Assembly (NCBI RefSeq): GCF_017551775.1
Contig: NZ_JAFZKX010000007.1
Span: forward strand, 1-34,227
DNA: 34,227 nt
Origin: Fibrobacter sp.
Lineage (GTDB): Bacteria > Fibrobacterota > Fibrobacteria > Fibrobacterales > Fibrobacteraceae
Direction: 5' to 3'
Numbering within the stretch: position 1 is the first letter of the stretch; the number at the start of each line of letters is the position of its first letter. Of the stretch, positions 1,590 to 19,720 are shown piece by piece. A program made the position numbers and the translations under genes. Under the pieces are notes generated by a model, which searched no databases, was not told the DNA's origin, and saw only the letters and a program-made list of their open reading frames with translations.

Positions 1590-3392
1590 CTAAAAGTAAA
1601 CGCCGTAGTTGGGGCGCGATTTCGGGCTGCGGCCCTTTATGTCGTATTTGCGGGCGCGGTCTAGTTTGAACGGGACCGGGGCGACAGCCTTGCGGATATT
1701 GACCGTTCCGTCATTCCACTTGCCGATCAGGACGATGTCATCCTTGTTGCCCTGGAGAAGTTCTGTCACGCGGGTCTTGAATGTCGAATCCGTAAACCAG
1801 CCTTCGAACGTATAGCCATCCTTCGTGGGCTCGTTTAGGACATACGTGGAAGAATCCGCATAGCGGTAGGTCGGATTCTTTTTCCATACGTACTTGTAAT
1901 TGCCGTCATTCACGTAGGTGATGGAATAGCCGCTTTCCCAACGGGCGAAATACTTCTGGTTGCCTTCCGCTGTAGAGGGAATCTTTTGCGCGGGCTTCGT
2001 GAAGTTCGTGTCGAGGAACCAGCCTTCGAACACATCGTTCTCCTTCACCGCGGGCTTCAGGGCGACCTCTTGCTTGGGCGTATAGTAGCCTGGGTTGGAG
2101 GGATTTGTGCCGCCATGCAATCTGTACGTGATGTCGTAAAATGCGCCGCTCAGTTTCGGGTAGGCATCTCCGGTGTTCTGCACCCATATGGGAATTTCGG
2201 TCGAGTCCTTCAGTTTTTTCAAGACCGTCCCGTTGGAAAATTCCGTAGCAGATGCGGGTGTGCCCTTGAAGCCTTCATTCGTGTAATTGCCTGGATAGAA
2301 TACGTTTTTTATAGACACGTCGCGTGCCGAGAGAAGCTGGCACAATTTCTCAAGTTGCAGGCCAATACCCGAAAACTTCTCCGTTATGTCGATTTTCCCA
2401 TTGTAGAAGGAATTCTTGACCAGAATATTGTCGGCGATACCTACAAGGCCGCCACCTTGCTGACCCATCAGGTATCCGGTAGAATAGGAGTTTTCTATCT
2501 GCATGTAAAAATGGTTCATATCGTCAAAGGAGCTATAAGCTGCGGGGTTTCGGTCCGGTTCGGGGTCCGGTGCGGCCGGGTCTAGGCATAAATCGCCTCG
2601 CATATCGGCGTAACCCACAAGCCCACCTACATAGCCATTTGTGCCGACCACGGTCGCCGTGCTATATACATTCTTGAGTTTAAGTTTTCCCTGTTGAATG
2701 TTAGACACAAAAGCGCCCGGGTTTTCACCGCTGAAATACGAATCCTTAATTCCAAGATTCTGGATAACTGCAGGGTAATAATCAATCATTTCAACCAGGC
2801 CCACATTGCCATACAGGCCCGAGATGGTGTGGCCGTTCCCCTCGATGACGCCGTTAAGTATTTTAAACGGTTTCCACCAGTAGTAATCGCCCGTGTTTGC
2901 AAAACCATCGGACGCGAGCACGTTCTCGTTGACGACGATATCGTCTTCGATGAAAATACAGACTTGCGTTCTTAGTGTATCGAGTATGTTTGCAGCCCCG
3001 TAAAGTTCGGCCGCATTGTGAATCAGCAAGCAGCCAGCATCGTCTTTCTCGGGTTCCTTCGAAACGACACCCCAGCGCGCATGGAGTTTCAATTTTCCGG
3101 AAGCATTATTGGGCGTGTCAAATGGGTAAAGAGCTTTCTTCTTGAAGTTATCGGCAAGAGGTGTGGTTTTCGTCGTATACCAGCCCAAAAATTCTGCGCC
3201 ATCCTTGGTAGGAGCAAACAGGTCATACACAACGGAGCTTGTCTTGTCGTATATAATGAAGGAGCGGTTATCCGGATTGTTTACGCCACCCTGCAGGTCA
3301 TAATCGATATAGACGGTATCGCCTTGATTAATGGCGAAGGCCGGCGCTGCGATAAAAAAGCTAGCTAAAAGGCAATATAAGACGTGTCTCAC
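1590..3392 (-). CDS. Secreted protein with InlB B-type repeats and GLUG-like beta-helix
   Basis: The start is a GTG at 3392, chosen because a strong AAGGAGG site lies just upstream and a clear signal peptide follows (about residues 1-20, ending AAPAFA). Three Listeria-Bacteroides (InlB B) repeats are visible: one near the N-terminus and two near the C-terminus. Each has the signature of a xxGGT-like strand, KDGYTFEGWF-type turn and GKW/ARW end. Between them lies a right-handed beta-helix-like region with GLUG-type motifs (NGYVGGLVGYAD, GQQGGGLVGIAD). The last 20 residues (YDIKGRSPKSRPNYGVYF) resemble the C-terminal region of many secreted Fibrobacter proteins, suggesting specialised export or surface attachment. 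The role is probably adhesion or surface display; the ligand is unknown. A TATATTGT box lies upstream near 3425-3440. Confidence 0.8.
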   Translation of the reverse strand: MRHVLYCLLASFFIAAPAFAINQGDTVYIDYDLQGGVNNPDNRSFIIYDKTSSVVYDLFAPTKDGAEFLGWYTTKTTPLADNFKKKALYPFDTPNNASGKLKLHARWGVVSKEPEKDDAGCLLIHNAAELYGAANILDTLRTQVCIFIEDDIVVNENVLASDGFANTGDYYWWKPFKILNGVIEGNGHTISGLYGNVGLVEMIDYYPAVIQNLGIKDSYFSGENPGAFVSNIQQGKLKLKNVYSTATVVGTNGYVGGLVGYADMRGDLCLDPAAPDPEPDRNPAAYSSFDDMNHFYMQIENSYSTGYLMGQQGGGLVGIADNILVKNSFYNGKIDITEKFSGIGLQLEKLCQLLSARDVSIKNVFYPGNYTNEGFKGTPASATEFSNGTVLKKLKDSTEIPIWVQNTGDAYPKLSGAFYDITYRLHGGTNPSNPGYYTPKQEVALKPAVKENDVFEGWFLDTNFTKPAQKIPSTAEGNQKYFARWESGYSITYVNDGNYKYVWKKNPTYRYADSSTYVLNEPTKDGYTFEGWFTDSTFKTRVTELLQGNKDDIVLIGKWNDGTVNIRKAVAPVPFKLDRARKYDIKGRSPKSRPNYGVYF

Positions 3393-7463: not shown

Positions 7464-9314
7464 ATGGCTGTAAAATACGATAAGGACAGCATCAAGACTC
7501 TAGATTGGTACGAACACATTAGGCTCCGCCCCGGTATGTACATCGGCAAGCTGGGCGACGGCCAGAGCCCCGACGACGGTATCTACGTTCTCGCGAAGGA
7601 AGTCATCGACAACTCCATCGACGAGTTCGCCATGGGCGCGGGCAAGAAGATTGAAATCGACATGGAAGACCACAGCTGCCGCGTGCGCGACTACGGCCGC
7701 GGCATCCCGCTCGAAAAGGTCATCGACTGCGTGTCGAAGATGAATACGGGCGGCAAGTACGACTCCGAAGCCTTCCAGAAGTCCGTCGGCATGAACGGCG
7801 TGGGTACCAAGGCGGTGAACGCCCTTTCCACCAAGTTTATCGTACAAAGTTTCCGCGACGGCAAGGTCAAGCGCGCCGAATTCAGCAAGGGCATTTTGGT
7901 AAAGGATTTCAAGATTGCCCCGACAAACGAGAAAAACGGCACCGAAATCTATTTCGAACCCGATAACGAGCTGTTCAAGAACTTCCGCTTCCTCCCCGCC
8001 TACATGGAAGAGAAGATCTGGAACTACGCCTACCTGAACAACGGGCTCACGCTGGTGATGAACGGCAAGGATTACAATAGCCCCAACGGGCTCTTGGACC
8101 TGCTCCACAGCCGCACCGACGATACTATCCGCTACGAGGTCATCCACTGCAAGGGCAAGGACCTGGAATTCGCCATCACCCACTCCAACGTGGAAGGCGA
8201 GCACTACTTCAGCTTCGTGAACGGCCAGCACACCACCCAGGGCGGCACCCACCAGGCGGCTTTCCGCGAGGGTCTCGTGAAGGGCGTGCGCGACCACTTC
8301 AAGAAGGAATTCGACGCCTCCGACGTGCGCAACTGCATTATCGGGGCGATTTCCGTGCGCATCCAGGAACCGGTTTTCGAATCGCAGACCAAGACGAAGC
8401 TCGGTAGCACCACCACGGCCCCGAACGGCCCCGCGCTCCGCACCTGGATCGTGGATTTCGTGGCCCGCGAGCTCGACAACTACCTGCACAAGAACGAAGA
8501 TACGGCCAAGAAGCTCCTGGAACGCATCACGCAGAACGAAAAACTGCGCAAGGAACTGGCCGGCGTCAAGAAACTGGCCAACGAACGCGCCAAGAAGGCG
8601 AACCTCAACAACAAGAAACTCCGCGACTGCAGCGTGCACCTCACCGACGCGAAGAACCCGCTCAAGAGCGAGACGATGATCTTCATTACCGAGGGTAATT
8701 CCGCATCGGGTACCATCACGACGGCTCGTAACCCCAAAACCCAGGCGGTGTTCAGCCTGCGCGGTAAGCCGAAGAACAGCTACGGCCTTTCGAAGAAGAT
8801 CGTGTACGAAAACGAGGAATGGAACCTTTTGCAGGCGGCCCTCAACATCGAAAACGGGCTCGAGGACCTGCGCTACGACAAAGTGATTATCGCGACCGAT
8901 GCTGACGTGGACGGTATGCACATCCGCCTTCTGGTGATGACGTTCTTCCTGCAGTTCTTCCCGGAACTCGTGCAGGAAAAGCACCTCTACATTCTGCAGG
9001 CCCCGCTGTTCCGCGTGCGTAACCGTAAGGACAAGAAAAAGACGTTCTACTGTTACGACGAAGAGGAACGCGACAACGCCGCGAAGGAAATCAACAAGAA
9101 AGATTTGGAAATCACGCGCTTCAAAGGCCTCGGTGAAATGGATTCCGAGGACTTCAAGCTGCTCATCGGCGAAAACATGCACCTGGAGACGGTCACCATG
9201 CCGAACGACGCCTCCCTGGGCAAGCTCCTGGAATACTACATGGGCAAGAACACGCAGGCCCGCCAGGACTACATCGTCGAAAACCTGCGCACCGAAGCCG
9301 TGGAGGAACTCTAG
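7464..9314 (+). CDS. parE: DNA topoisomerase IV subunit B (ParE-like type IIA topoisomerase ATPase)
   Basis: A 616-residue type IIA topoisomerase B subunit. The GHKL ATPase domain shows EVIDNSIDE (46-54), DYGRGIPL (76-83) and [13 protein letters not shown] (110-122). The TOPRIM domain shows EGNSASG starting at E410 (Asn replaces the usual Asp of EGDSA) and DADVD at 479-483, which binds magnesium. The wording [21 protein letters not shown] and the short length match the ParE branch of Bacteroidota-like organisms rather than gyrase B. With ParC it decatenates daughter chromosomes. The ribosome binding site AGGTAAG precedes the ATG. Its TAG stop abuts the parC ATG with no gap. Confidence 0.92.
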
Positions 9315-16261: not shown

Positions 16262-18589
16262 ATGAAAAAATTTGTCAAGATTGCGGCAATCGTCATCGCC
16301 GTTTTAGTCGTCCTCGTCATCGCCACCCTCAAATTCGCACCCGGTATCGTGCGAAGCTATGTCGTAGGGCACTCCGAAGAACTCATCGGGCGCAAGGTCG
16401 CCATCCAGAACATATCGCTCAACCCGTTCACGTTCAAACTCGAAATTGACAGCCTCGCCGTATTCGAGAAGGACGGTGAAACGCGCTTTGTCGCCTTCGA
16501 CAAGTTCCGCGTGAACGTCGACCCGCTGCGACTTTTCACGGGTACGGCCGCCGTGAGCGAAATCTACCTGAAGGGGCTATACGCACGCGTGCTCCAGCAC
16601 GAAGACCGCTTCAACTTCTCCGACATCATCGAGTTCGTCGCCAAGGGCGATACGACTGCATTCGATTCGGCCATGGTCGCAGATAGCCTCGCCGCCAAGG
16701 CCGATTCTACCGGCATGGTGAACGCCGTAGAAATCGCAGACGAGCTCCCCTTCAGCATCTCGGTCGAAAACATCGTATTCGAGAAGGGAAACATCATTTA
16801 CCAGGATACGAAAATCGGATCCAAGATCCAGCTCGACGACTTTTCCATCAGCATTCCCGCGGTTTACCTGAGCAACAAGCAGACCGACATCGGCGTGAGC
16901 TTCAAGTTCGCGGATGGCGGCGACCTCAACGTGAAGGTTCTCGCGAACGCGGCGACAAACGATTTCCACGTAGGGGTTGACCTGCGCAAGTTCGCGCTCG
17001 CCTGCGGAAAGCCCTACCTGAACGACTTCATCAACTACAAGGACTTCTCGGGTTCGCTCTCCGTCTTGATGGATATCGACGGCAACCTGAACCAAATTCT
17101 CGCCTCGAACGTCAAAGGAACGGTCTCGCTCGACGATATCGTGTTGACGGAAACCAGCGGGAGGACTCTCGGCGTGAACCACGTGGGCGTGGGCATCGCA
17201 AGCGCGAACGTCGAGAAGAACGAGTTCCGCATCGATTCCGTAATCGTGGACGGCGGTTTCGCGCACCTCGATCTCTACAAGAACGGCAAGACCAACATCG
17301 ACGTGCTCCTGAAGAAGGGTTCCGCCGACGAGCCGGACAGCACGCAGCTTGCAGCCGACCAGCAGCTCGTTCTCGGCGATGCGCCCGATTCCACGGCAAC
17401 CGAAGCGAAGCCCGAAGAAGCGGCAAGCCCGGCTGAAGAAACGCCAAAGGCCAAGCCGCTCAAGGCAAAGATAAACAAGCTCCTCGTGCAGAACACCACG
17501 GCTAGCGCGACCGACCATTCCATCACCAAGCCGTTCAACTACACCGTCAAGGCGATAACCGTGAAGGGCTCGAACATCAACTTCGACACGCCCTGCACCA
17601 TCAACGTGAACGCATCGTTCCCCGAAGGCGGAAGCGTCGCCGTGAAGTACAAGGGAGCGCTCAGCGATATCGGCACGATGGATGCCTACATCAGCGTGAA
17701 GAACCTCGCCCTCAAGCATTTCAGCAACTACAGCCACCACTTTACCGGCTACCCGATAAGCGCGGGTACGCTTGCCTTCGCGAGCGAGAACAAGATAAAG
17801 AACTTCGAACTCGACAGCAAGAACGTTATCGACATCTACAACATCGACGTGGGCGACAAGGATCCGGAATCCGATCCGGAATTCCTGGTCCCGATGAAGG
17901 TGGGCCTGTACATCCTCAAGGACAAGGACGACAAGATTGAATTCGACGTTCCCGTACACGGCAACATGAAGGACCCGAAGTTCTCCATCGGGAAAATCAT
18001 CTGGACGACGGTTTCGAACCTGCTTATCAAGGTGGCGCTCTCCCCGCTCAAGATGGTCGGGAACCTCGCCGCTACCGGAGCCGGGGCCATCGGTATCGAC
18101 CTCGGGAAGAACGACGAAATCATCATCGACGCGACGCGCGCCTCGTTCACGAGCGAACAGTACGCCAAGGCCTCCAAGATGACCGAAGCCGTCGCGAAAG
18201 ACAAGAACCTGAAGCTCATCTTCACGCAGTTCTACAACCCGCGCAAGACCACGGAAGCCTACAAAACCATCAAGCTCAAGACGGATTACTACAAGAAGTC
18301 GCAGGGCAAGGACAAACTGACCGAACTCGACGAACGCGCCATTGCTGACATGAGCAACAGCGACGAAGGATTCCAGGCATACCTCAAGGAAATCGGGGAA
18401 ATCGACCAGAAGGCACTCCGCAAGGAAGTCGCCGCACTCGCCGAAACCAGGAACCAGGAATTGCTCAAGGTGCTGCAGCAACAGAAAGGCGTGACCAAGA
18501 AGAACATCACGGTCATCACGGCCCCTGCGGACAAGCTTTCGGCCCACCGCGGCAAGGCCCTGTACAAAGTGACCGTCGACGTGCAGTAA
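16262..18589 (+). CDS. DUF748 / AsmA-like envelope protein
   Basis: A 775-residue protein with one N-terminal membrane anchor (about 7-27) and a long beta-rich periplasmic part. Typical DUF748/AsmA-like wording is visible: GRKVAIQNISLNPFTFKLEI near the start, and later NYSHHFTGYPISAGTLAFASENKIKNFEL with a conserved D/GNMKDPKFSIGKI block. Such proteins belong to the AsmA/TamB/YhdP superfamily, which is linked to lipid transport and outer-membrane homeostasis; a role here is inferred only. A low-complexity Glu/Ala/Pro insert lies at about 365-400. It lies 41 bp after the YdcF-like gene and probably also has its own promoter. Confidence 0.82.
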   Translation: MKKFVKIAAIVIAVLVVLVIATLKFAPGIVRSYVVGHSEELIGRKVAIQNISLNPFTFKLEIDSLAVFEKDGETRFVAFDKFRVNVDPLRLFTGTAAVSEIYLKGLYARVLQHEDRFNFSDIIEFVAKGDTTAFDSAMVADSLAAKADSTGMVNAVEIADELPFSISVENIVFEKGNIIYQDTKIGSKIQLDDFSISIPAVYLSNKQTDIGVSFKFADGGDLNVKVLANAATNDFHVGVDLRKFALACGKPYLNDFINYKDFSGSLSVLMDIDGNLNQILASNVKGTVSLDDIVLTETSGRTLGVNHVGVGIASANVEKNEFRIDSVIVDGGFAHLDLYKNGKTNIDVLLKKGSADEPDSTQLAADQQLVLGDAPDSTATEAKPEEAASPAEETPKAKPLKAKINKLLVQNTTASATDHSITKPFNYTVKAITVKGSNINFDTPCTINVNASFPEGGSVAVKYKGALSDIGTMDAYISVKNLALKHFSNYSHHFTGYPISAGTLAFASENKIKNFELDSKNVIDIYNIDVGDKDPESDPEFLVPMKVGLYILKDKDDKIEFDVPVHGNMKDPKFSIGKIIWTTVSNLLIKVALSPLKMVGNLAATGAGAIGIDLGKNDEIIIDATRASFTSEQYAKASKMTEAVAKDKNLKLIFTQFYNPRKTTEAYKTIKLKTDYYKKSQGKDKLTELDERAIADMSNSDEGFQAYLKEIGEIDQKALRKEVAALAETRNQELLKVLQQQKGVTKKNITVITAPADKLSAHRGKALYKVTVDVQ

Positions 18590-18602
18590 ATCGCGCTCCC
18601 GA

Positions 18603-18880
18603 TTGCCGCGGCTCTCGCCATTTGCAAAATTGGCGCTCGTTCCGAGCGCATTTGGCATCTGCGATGCCATGCGGCTGCATTTCGGCCATAGGTAATGTAA
18701 ACATTACCTGCGGCACTCAATTTGCACGCATTTGGCTAGGCTCGGCCATGTCAAAACAAAAAAGTTTTGACGTCTTCGACGTCCGTGGCTACGGCTCGAA
18801 GATGCAAAAATGCTTTTTGCACTTTCTCGCCTTGCACACTTTTGCCGCGGCTCTCGCCATTTGCTAAATTTGCGCTCGTT
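18603..18880 (+). repeat. Hairpin-rich intergenic element bracketed by a 39-bp direct repeat
   Basis: The 291 bp between the DUF748 gene and the NifU-like gene hold no plausible gene. Copies at 18603-18641 and 18842-18880 are identical at 37 of 39 positions, 239 bp apart. Between and including them lie inverted repeats: 18633-18649 (7-bp stem), 18654-18668 (6 bp, loop TGC), 18669-18680 (4 bp), 18690-18709 (AGGTAATGT-AA-ACATTACCT), 18750-18771 (8 bp), 18773-18802 (7 bp with an inner 4-bp stem) and 18803-18821 (8 bp, loop TGC). A 10-bp direct repeat CGCATTTGGC is at 18647 and 18727. Confidence 0.7.
18841..18872 (+). promoter_or_regulatory. Promoter of the NifU-like gene (TTTG-N20-TAAATTTG)
   Basis: TTTG (18841-18844), a 20-nt spacer and TAAATTTG (18865-18872) match the Bacteroidota -33/-7 promoter pattern in both sequence and spacing. 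The box ends 8 nt before the ATG, so the leader would be very short. The upstream duplicate of this block carries AAAATTGG instead and should be inactive. Confidence 0.5.
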
Positions 18881-19720
18881 ATGAGTGAAGAAATGTGCGC
18901 CAACCTCTCCCAGAAAGTGCAGGAGATTGCAAAGGCCCCGAAGTACCGCGGAGCCATATTCCAGATTGAAGCCGACGAGAAAGGACTCGCGCTTGTAGAC
19001 GTGAAGGTATCCAGCCTGAAGGTCTACCTGATGATTGACCCCGAATGCGACAAGATTCTCGAGACCAGGTTCTTTACCTACGGCGGCCCCATATTCACCG
19101 CGCTCGCCGACACGTTCTGCAAGATGATTCAGCAGAAGACCATCGACGAGGCGTGCGCCATCACCACAGTGAGCATCGAGGAAAGCCTCCGCGACACGCC
19201 CGATGTGAGGGCCATTCCGGAGAGCGCACCCGAAATTTCGCAGATGCAGACGCTTATCGAGATGGTTGCGCAGGTCTACCCCGAAAAGAAGGGAACCGCA
19301 ATCCTCGTGCGCGAGAAGATGGACCGCATCAAGTACCGCACGCAGACCGCCGAAGGCCGCGCGGAAGCGGATGCGGAATGGAACGCGATGACCAAGCCAC
19401 AGAAAATCGAGAAAATCGAGGCCTGGCTCCACCAGTCCGTACGCGGCATGCTTCAGGGTGACGGCGGCGACGTCGAGATCCTCGACCTGACCGAAGACAA
19501 CAGGCTCAAGATACGCTACCAGGGCGCATGTGCCGGCTGCGGCTCCGCCATGGGCGGAACACTCTTCTACATCGAAGACGAACTCAAGAACAACGTGTAC
19601 TACAACCTGATTGTAGAGCCCGAAGACCCGCTCGACAACCTTCCGCCGAACGCGATGTCCGATGCCGACCGCAATTTGGCCGGACTGGACGACAACAATC
19701 CTCCAGCGAGTTTGTTCTAG
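18881..19720 (+). CDS. NifU-like protein: degenerate IscU-type domain fused to NifU C-terminal (Nfu) domain
   Basis: The ATG at 18881 is chosen because upstream codons run through the hairpin repeat. The product has 279 residues. The C-terminal domain (about 180-240) is a clear NifU_C/Nfu domain with QGDGGDVEILDL and the cluster-binding CAGC at 217-220. The N-terminal half resembles the NifU/IscU scaffold (FFTYGGPIFTALADTFCKMIQQKTIDEA) but lacks the cysteine of the usual FGCG motif. It probably carries or transfers Fe-S clusters through the C-terminal CxxC, with the N-terminal domain structural. No cysteine desulfurase gene is nearby. Confidence 0.8.
   Translation: MSEEMCANLSQKVQEIAKAPKYRGAIFQIEADEKGLALVDVKVSSLKVYLMIDPECDKILETRFFTYGGPIFTALADTFCKMIQQKTIDEACAITTVSIEESLRDTPDVRAIPESAPEISQMQTLIEMVAQVYPEKKGTAILVREKMDRIKYRTQTAEGRAEADAEWNAMTKPQKIEKIEAWLHQSVRGMLQGDGGDVEILDLTEDNRLKIRYQGACAGCGSAMGGTLFYIEDELKNNVYYNLIVEPEDPLDNLPPNAMSDADRNLAGLDDNNPPASLF

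Follow-up and report, generated by a model that had tools for sequence, protein, structure and literature searches.

PATEs and the small mobile repeats of Haloquadratum are short, gene-free elements with palindromes near their ends, precise insertion and nesting (PMC3119063), all of which are shared by the units described here. REP/BIME sequences and their associated TnpA-REP are also comparable, in that both they and the present units are small dispersed intergenic palindromes that possibly represent non-autonomous transposons (PMC8266576). In IS608, a 4-nt guide pairs with the cleavage site to choose the target, and the specificity of this element has been raised in vitro by engineering 8-13 nt of pairing between the 3' base of the left hairpin and the target upstream of the cut (PMC5934647). 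As for the sites that are occupied, the TTTG (-33) and TAnnTTTG (-7) pair is known as the Bacteroidetes-type promoter (PMC6847099).

The window analyzed here, 34,227 nt in length, is contig C7 of a 3.2-Mb Fibrobacter sp. genome. Fibrobacter is a gut bacterium and a key rumen fibre degrader. Among the open-licence papers in PubMed Central, none was found that describes palindromic elements in Fibrobacter or maps its start sites, and the large family of units that emerged from this window is apparently undescribed in the genus.

A composite element upstream of a nifU-like gene

The initial annotation drew attention to a 39-bp direct repeat whose copies differ at only two positions, both in a promoter box, and sequence comparison confirmed this description. 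The copies (18603-18641 and 18842-18880) are spaced by 239 bp, and the two mismatches (18626 A versus 18865 T and 18632 G versus 18871 T) change the box from TAAATTTG in the downstream copy to AAAATTGG in the upstream one. The run of stem-loops and the 20-bp near-palindrome reported from the same stretch were also present on re-inspection (Table 1). Folding of the 295-nt stretch gave z scores of -5.2 (as RNA) and -5.0 (as DNA) relative to dinucleotide shuffles, none of which (0 of 200) equaled the native sequence. The stretch has no gene of its own, no terminator was detected in it on the strand of the downstream gene, and no Rfam family covers it, the sole Rfam match in the window being a tRNA elsewhere. 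A BLAST search of the element against plasmids returned no match, nor did a sigma-70 promoter scan of the region, sigma-70 being the wrong promoter type here. The identity between the two repeat copies extends over GCGCTCGTT, which belongs to hairpin 1 on the left and to the leader on the right and may be partly due to chance.

With high confidence, the stretch can be interpreted as a set of nested non-autonomous mobile palindromic elements, referred to as units A, B, and C (∼75-90 nt each), inserted into the -7 box of a nifU-like gene. The 239-bp insert splits this box (TAAAT|TTTG), and the upstream neighbor, a gene for an AsmA/DUF748 protein, ends at 18589. In the closest relative (L047), the same gene is preceded by a single unit A tail and box, with the insert missing as a 238-nt gap in the alignment; another relative (L048) has neither tail nor box. 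This distribution argues that the 39-bp repeat is made up of two unit A tails with their boxes, one old and one new. In the alignments, units B and C are shown as having entered unit A later: the serS promoter carries unit A alone in L109 and A+B in L111, and the window copy differs from the latter by an insert of exactly 80 nt, which is unit C.

A TAnnTTTG-type box is found ∼5-10 nt 5' of the ATG of the nifU-like gene in most species (L047-L092), despite the changing upstream gene. The leader of this gene is very short, possibly near-leaderless. If the spacing in Fibrobacter matches that in Bacteroidetes, the nifU transcript would start ∼4 nt before the ATG.

Table 1. Features assigned to the composite element and its surroundings (positions in the window)
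Feature	Positions	Strand	Basis
Older unit A remnant: tail CCGCGGCTCTCGCC and former promoter box (now AAAAT); holds most of the upstream 39-bp copy	18590-18630	+	Single tail and box in L047, none in L048; alignment
239-bp composite insertion: unit A with nested C and B; right end re-supplies the promoter box	18631-18869	+	Absent in L047; module relatives elsewhere
Unit A hairpin 1, GCGCTCG-TTC-CGAGCGC	18633-18649	+	Sequence; helix covaries in other copies
Nested unit C, 80 nt, at CGCATTT beside unit A hairpin 1	18654-18733	+	80-nt insert relative to A+B copy L111; own-genome copies on C83 and C79
Unit C hairpin, GGCATC-TGC-GATGCC	18654-18668	+	Sequence
Unit C 20-bp near-palindrome (center 18699.5)	18690-18709	+	Sequence
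Unit A X', internal complement of the promoter box: ATTTGGCTA here, ATTTAGCTA in sister copies	18730-18738	+	Complementarity over 19 independent loci
Conserved core GGCTCGGCCATG	18739-18750	+	Alignment A1, invariant except for one base in one sequence; pattern matches versus 0 for control
Unit A variable hairpin 2, CAAAAC...GTTTTG, 3' arm ending in TTTG	18752-18769	+	Covarying helix, double changes in 6 of 8 pairs
Nested unit B (75 nt), target TTTG in unit A; own end TTTTG	18770-18844	+	With/without pairs L254/L261, L106/L127, L109/L111
Unit B hairpin, loop TTC	18769-18783
Unit B hairpin, loop TGC	18803-18821
TTTG, -33-type element, with 20 nt to the TA of the -7 box	18841-18844	+	Spacing in 14 of 19 loci; consensus in PMC6847099
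Unit A conserved tail CCGCGGCTCTCGCC	18845-18858	+	Alignment A1
-7 promoter box TAAATTTG: unit A right end (TAAAT) plus target (TTG)	18865-18872	+	Empty/filled metG pairs
NifU-like gene, start codon 8 nt past the box	18881-19720	+	PF01106 (1.7e-15), PF01592 (3e-11)

Anatomy and distribution of the units

Unit A is ∼85 nt long and has the order X|hairpin-X'-GGCTCGGYCATG-hairpin-CTCGCC-X, where X is the target sequence (a promoter box or, in other copies, a stop-codon region) and X', carried by most units, is an internal sequence complementary to it. In the left half, a flank ending in the promoter box is followed by hairpin 1 (GCGCTC-loop-GAGCGC) and X' (ATTTAGC, ATTTAGTAC, ATATAGC, or AAGATAG). 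The right half consists of the conserved core, the variable hairpin 2, which mostly ends in TTTG, CGCGGCNCTCGCC, a short T-rich spacer, and X (CTAAAT, CTATAT, or CTATCT), usually with TTG next to it; the start codon of the gene lies 8-12 or 30-59 nt past X. Subterminal palindromes in the absence of a gene, as in PATEs, are evident in alignment A1 and the pair counts. The covariation score of the helices was 0.307, compared to 0.119 in shuffles (0 of 500 as high) and no more than 0.085 in slid versions. Thus far, the comparisons show that the hairpins and the X'/X pair covary and that copies are sporadic at orthologous promoters.

Within the same genome, the stretch matches contigs C83 (89% identity over 231 nt) and C79 (90% over 141 nt), with shorter matches on further contigs. 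The core pattern GGCTCGGCCATGYCA was found in 40 of the 80 genomes of the genus, mostly metagenome-assembled, and the reversed control pattern had no matches. A covariance model of unit A, built from 30 copies, matched all 37 Fibrobacter genomes searched (2-34 copies in each, 19 in this one) and none of the 24 genomes from other genera of the phylum. The copies were collected via the conserved core and are therefore a biased sample; the loci were thinned for redundancy, and the copy statistics given here and below ignore phylogeny. The search of the same genome and its relatives, which the initial annotation had suggested, thus refuted uniqueness, and the covariation of the stems did not uphold a chance structure; a chance duplication was rejected in view of the dispersed copies and the covariation.

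Related units also occur in other arrangements. In genome G058, four copies of a 165-nt composite (L294-L297, ∼2920-3190 of each), in which a GTCATCCTCGACC...GAATCCAG repeat encloses a related unit, are 94-99% identical, i.e., recently amplified. These equal-scoring copies were considered as a candidate autonomous element and rejected, as the 165-nt composites carry no gene. Several related units stand in a row in tandem in L083 (∼8600-9050, minus strand) and L308, at the 3' end of a gene whose product ends in ...VVLAKDTIIKA*. In L040, L052, and L327, related units with X = GTCAT are found within a GTCATTGCGA(A/G)G repeat.

Target sites, rebuilt promoters, and guide-like pairing

Unit A is found exactly at TAnnT|TTTG boxes and faces the gene: a gene start lies within 60 nt to the right of the unit in 41 of 45 copies and to the left in 6 of 45. 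The metG promoters of 50 genomes, all with a TAnnTT box directly 5' of the start codon, illustrate its patchy occurrence: 7 carry unit A (one of them with a nested B), 4 carry only B, and 39 carry neither. The units show the combination, typical of mobile elements in general, of precise presence or absence at orthologous sites and dispersed copies. In the clean empty/filled pairs at metG, the insert measures 83 nt once and 86 nt twice. In one, the empty site of L251 reads CTTTTACTAAATTTGG and L252 has an 83-nt insert. In the two others, the target CTATAT (empty in L259) is retained on the left in L254 with CTAAAT on the right, and the target CTACAT (empty in L260) is retained on the left in L243, again with CTAAAT on the right. 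The right ends of L254 and L243 differ from the empty targets and so appear to have come with the element; the remaining pairs match at both ends and are ambiguous in this respect, and such matches leave the edges of the gap uncertain by a few bases. Upstream of metG in L243 and L260, the loop of unit B hairpin 1 is broken by a ∼50-nt insert (TTTTCCCCAAAGAGGATAACTC...TTTCGTATA).

The right end of unit A brings a new TAnnT and so rebuilds the -7 box, and its hairpin 2 supplies a TTTG 20 nt upstream of the box. Of 19 independent loci, 14 have this TTTG exactly 20 nt upstream of the box's TA, and in the other 5 it is absent from that position. Unit B, in turn, inserts into the -33 element TTTG; because its own end reads TTTTG, this element too is rebuilt (L254/L261, L106/L127). 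The -33/-7 pair and its 20-nt spacing are those of the Bacteroidetes-type promoter, which was reported for Flavobacterium (PMC6847099). With both elements re-supplied, the persistence of the units at promoters probably reflects their low cost.

The pairing of X' with the right-end box averaged 6.3 of 8 positions over 19 loci, compared to 5.5 in shuffles (0 of 5,000 as high), and in all 7 loci with unlike left and right boxes, X' fits the right box better. Complementarity of X' and X is also seen at unrelated targets, such as AGTCCT/AGGACT in L298, TTGGCTT/AAGCCAA in L312, GACTACT/AGTAGTC in L336, GAGCATT/AATGCTC in L324, and GTCAT/ATGAC in L327. The complementary run averaged 4.79 over 29 non-promoter copies, versus 3.48 ± 0.17 in shuffles (0 of 2,000 as high), with the X'/X match being unconvincing in several of these copies, and unit B has no clear guide for its TTTG target. 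In the copies at unrelated targets, the identity run between the left flank and the right end was 6.45, versus 4.25 ± 0.24 (0 of 2,000 shuffles as high). In 17 of 46 non-promoter copies, a convergent gene has its stop codon within the initial 14 nt of the right end, compared to 4.9% of random positions, an excess that makes gene ends a second favored site. Taking promoter and gene-end targets together, the units occupy gene boundaries, whose sequence they repeat.

These observations suggest a mechanism in which the element would move as folded single-stranded DNA. By base pairing with both the target X and the right end of the element itself, X', which lies beside hairpin 1, could then serve as a guide and would determine the landing site.

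Alternative explanations and relation to known systems

The units could be classical PATE- or REP-type elements that are, or formerly were, mobilized in trans by a Y1 HUH transposase, either of the IS200/IS605 kind or REP-associated, an explanation that we consider possible but still unlikely. It would account for the palindromes near both ends, the guide-like pairing, and the asymmetric insertion with an element-borne right end, and Y1 transposase genes are indeed encoded in 27 of the 80 Fibrobacter genomes. However, they are absent from the other 53, and many near-complete genomes that carry copies (including G003, G013, G043, and G044) have no Y1 gene. No related Y1 element with matching ends was found: those inspected, such as the Fibrobacter IS200-type elements in L163-L170, end differently, in ACCACC..GGTGGT-like hairpins. 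X' also differs from the guide of IS608, being located 3' of the hairpin and exceeding 4 nt in length. Y2/IS91 transposases (PF04986) had no match in 41 genomes, where the controls were equally silent. A further view, that these are minimal transposons of a genus-wide class, with a 6-9-nt internal DNA guide often re-aimed (at promoter boxes and stop-codon regions) and moved by an enzyme other than Y1, is speculative and rather unlikely; the mobilizing enzyme could be lost, too divergent, or of another kind.

Self-templated correction is known from quasi-palindromes, and the X'/X match could accordingly have been made after insertion by snap-back templated synthesis, with the units spreading via ordinary recombination or template switching and not by guided transposition. 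In 7 of 7 loci, X' fits the right end, which forms the opposite side of the large stem, better than the left flank, and this speaks for the scenario. It is nevertheless quite improbable, given the clean, precise-ended insertions at many unrelated targets and the two metG pairs whose right end, unlike the empty target, appears to have come with the element. Even less credible is the idea that selection maintains the units before certain genes as a host promoter cassette or a cis-regulatory structure, be it an insulator, a cruciform, or an RNA switch. Strong covariation, constant orientation to genes, and the promoter elements conserved within the unit are all in its favor, but orthologous promoters carry the unit only sporadically, similar units are found at gene ends, and the hairpins lie 5' of the promoter. 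A structured noncoding RNA, one of the options offered in the initial annotation, is not supported: the structured part is upstream of the promoter it carries, Rfam has no match for it, its occurrence at orthologous promoters is sporadic, and the pairing reaches target DNA outside the element. Two other options, a dispersed palindromic element and a promoter duplication flanking an insertion, proved jointly right, with copies found genus-wide and sporadically at orthologous promoters.

If the nested mobile elements are indeed guided by X', they would constitute a natural case of DNA-guided target choice, with a geometry that, in the literature covered, has been reported from IS608 engineering. 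They also show how a mobile element that restores the -33 and the -7 element alike can inhabit the promoters of important genes, and this would account for much of the odd hairpin-rich sequence upstream of Fibrobacter genes. With the guide/target rule, both retargeting and the missing enzyme become open to direct tests.

Compared to MITEs, the X'/X inverted repeat is not terminal, as hairpin 1 lies outside it, and a parent transposon was not found. Unlike REP/BIME sequences (PMC8266576), the units have no conserved GTAG-type tetranucleotide at the hairpin foot (it is absent from the conserved columns of A1), combine two hairpins with a long stem, and are genus-wide without a co-occurring Y1 gene. 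PATEs (PMC3119063) differ from the present units in that the latter are ∼75-90 nt long, target promoter boxes and stop codons, and carry an internal X' complementary to both target and right end; an IS605 element with matching ends was not found for them. The guide/cleavage-site complementarity typical of IS200/IS605-derived PATEs is present, in a position and at a length unlike those of IS608: the guide is 6-9 nt and 3' of the hairpin (4 nt and 5' in IS608), the units carry no transposase gene, and their right end repeats target-like sequence. What they share with IS608 and the IS200/IS605 family (PMC5934647) is the choice of target via base pairing between element and target and a left-end hairpin next to the cleavage site. 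X' sits just where the engineered IS608 variant makes its 8-13 nt of pairing, on the 3' side of the left hairpin at its base (PMC5934647), and it is from this correspondence that we infer single-strand, guide-directed insertion.
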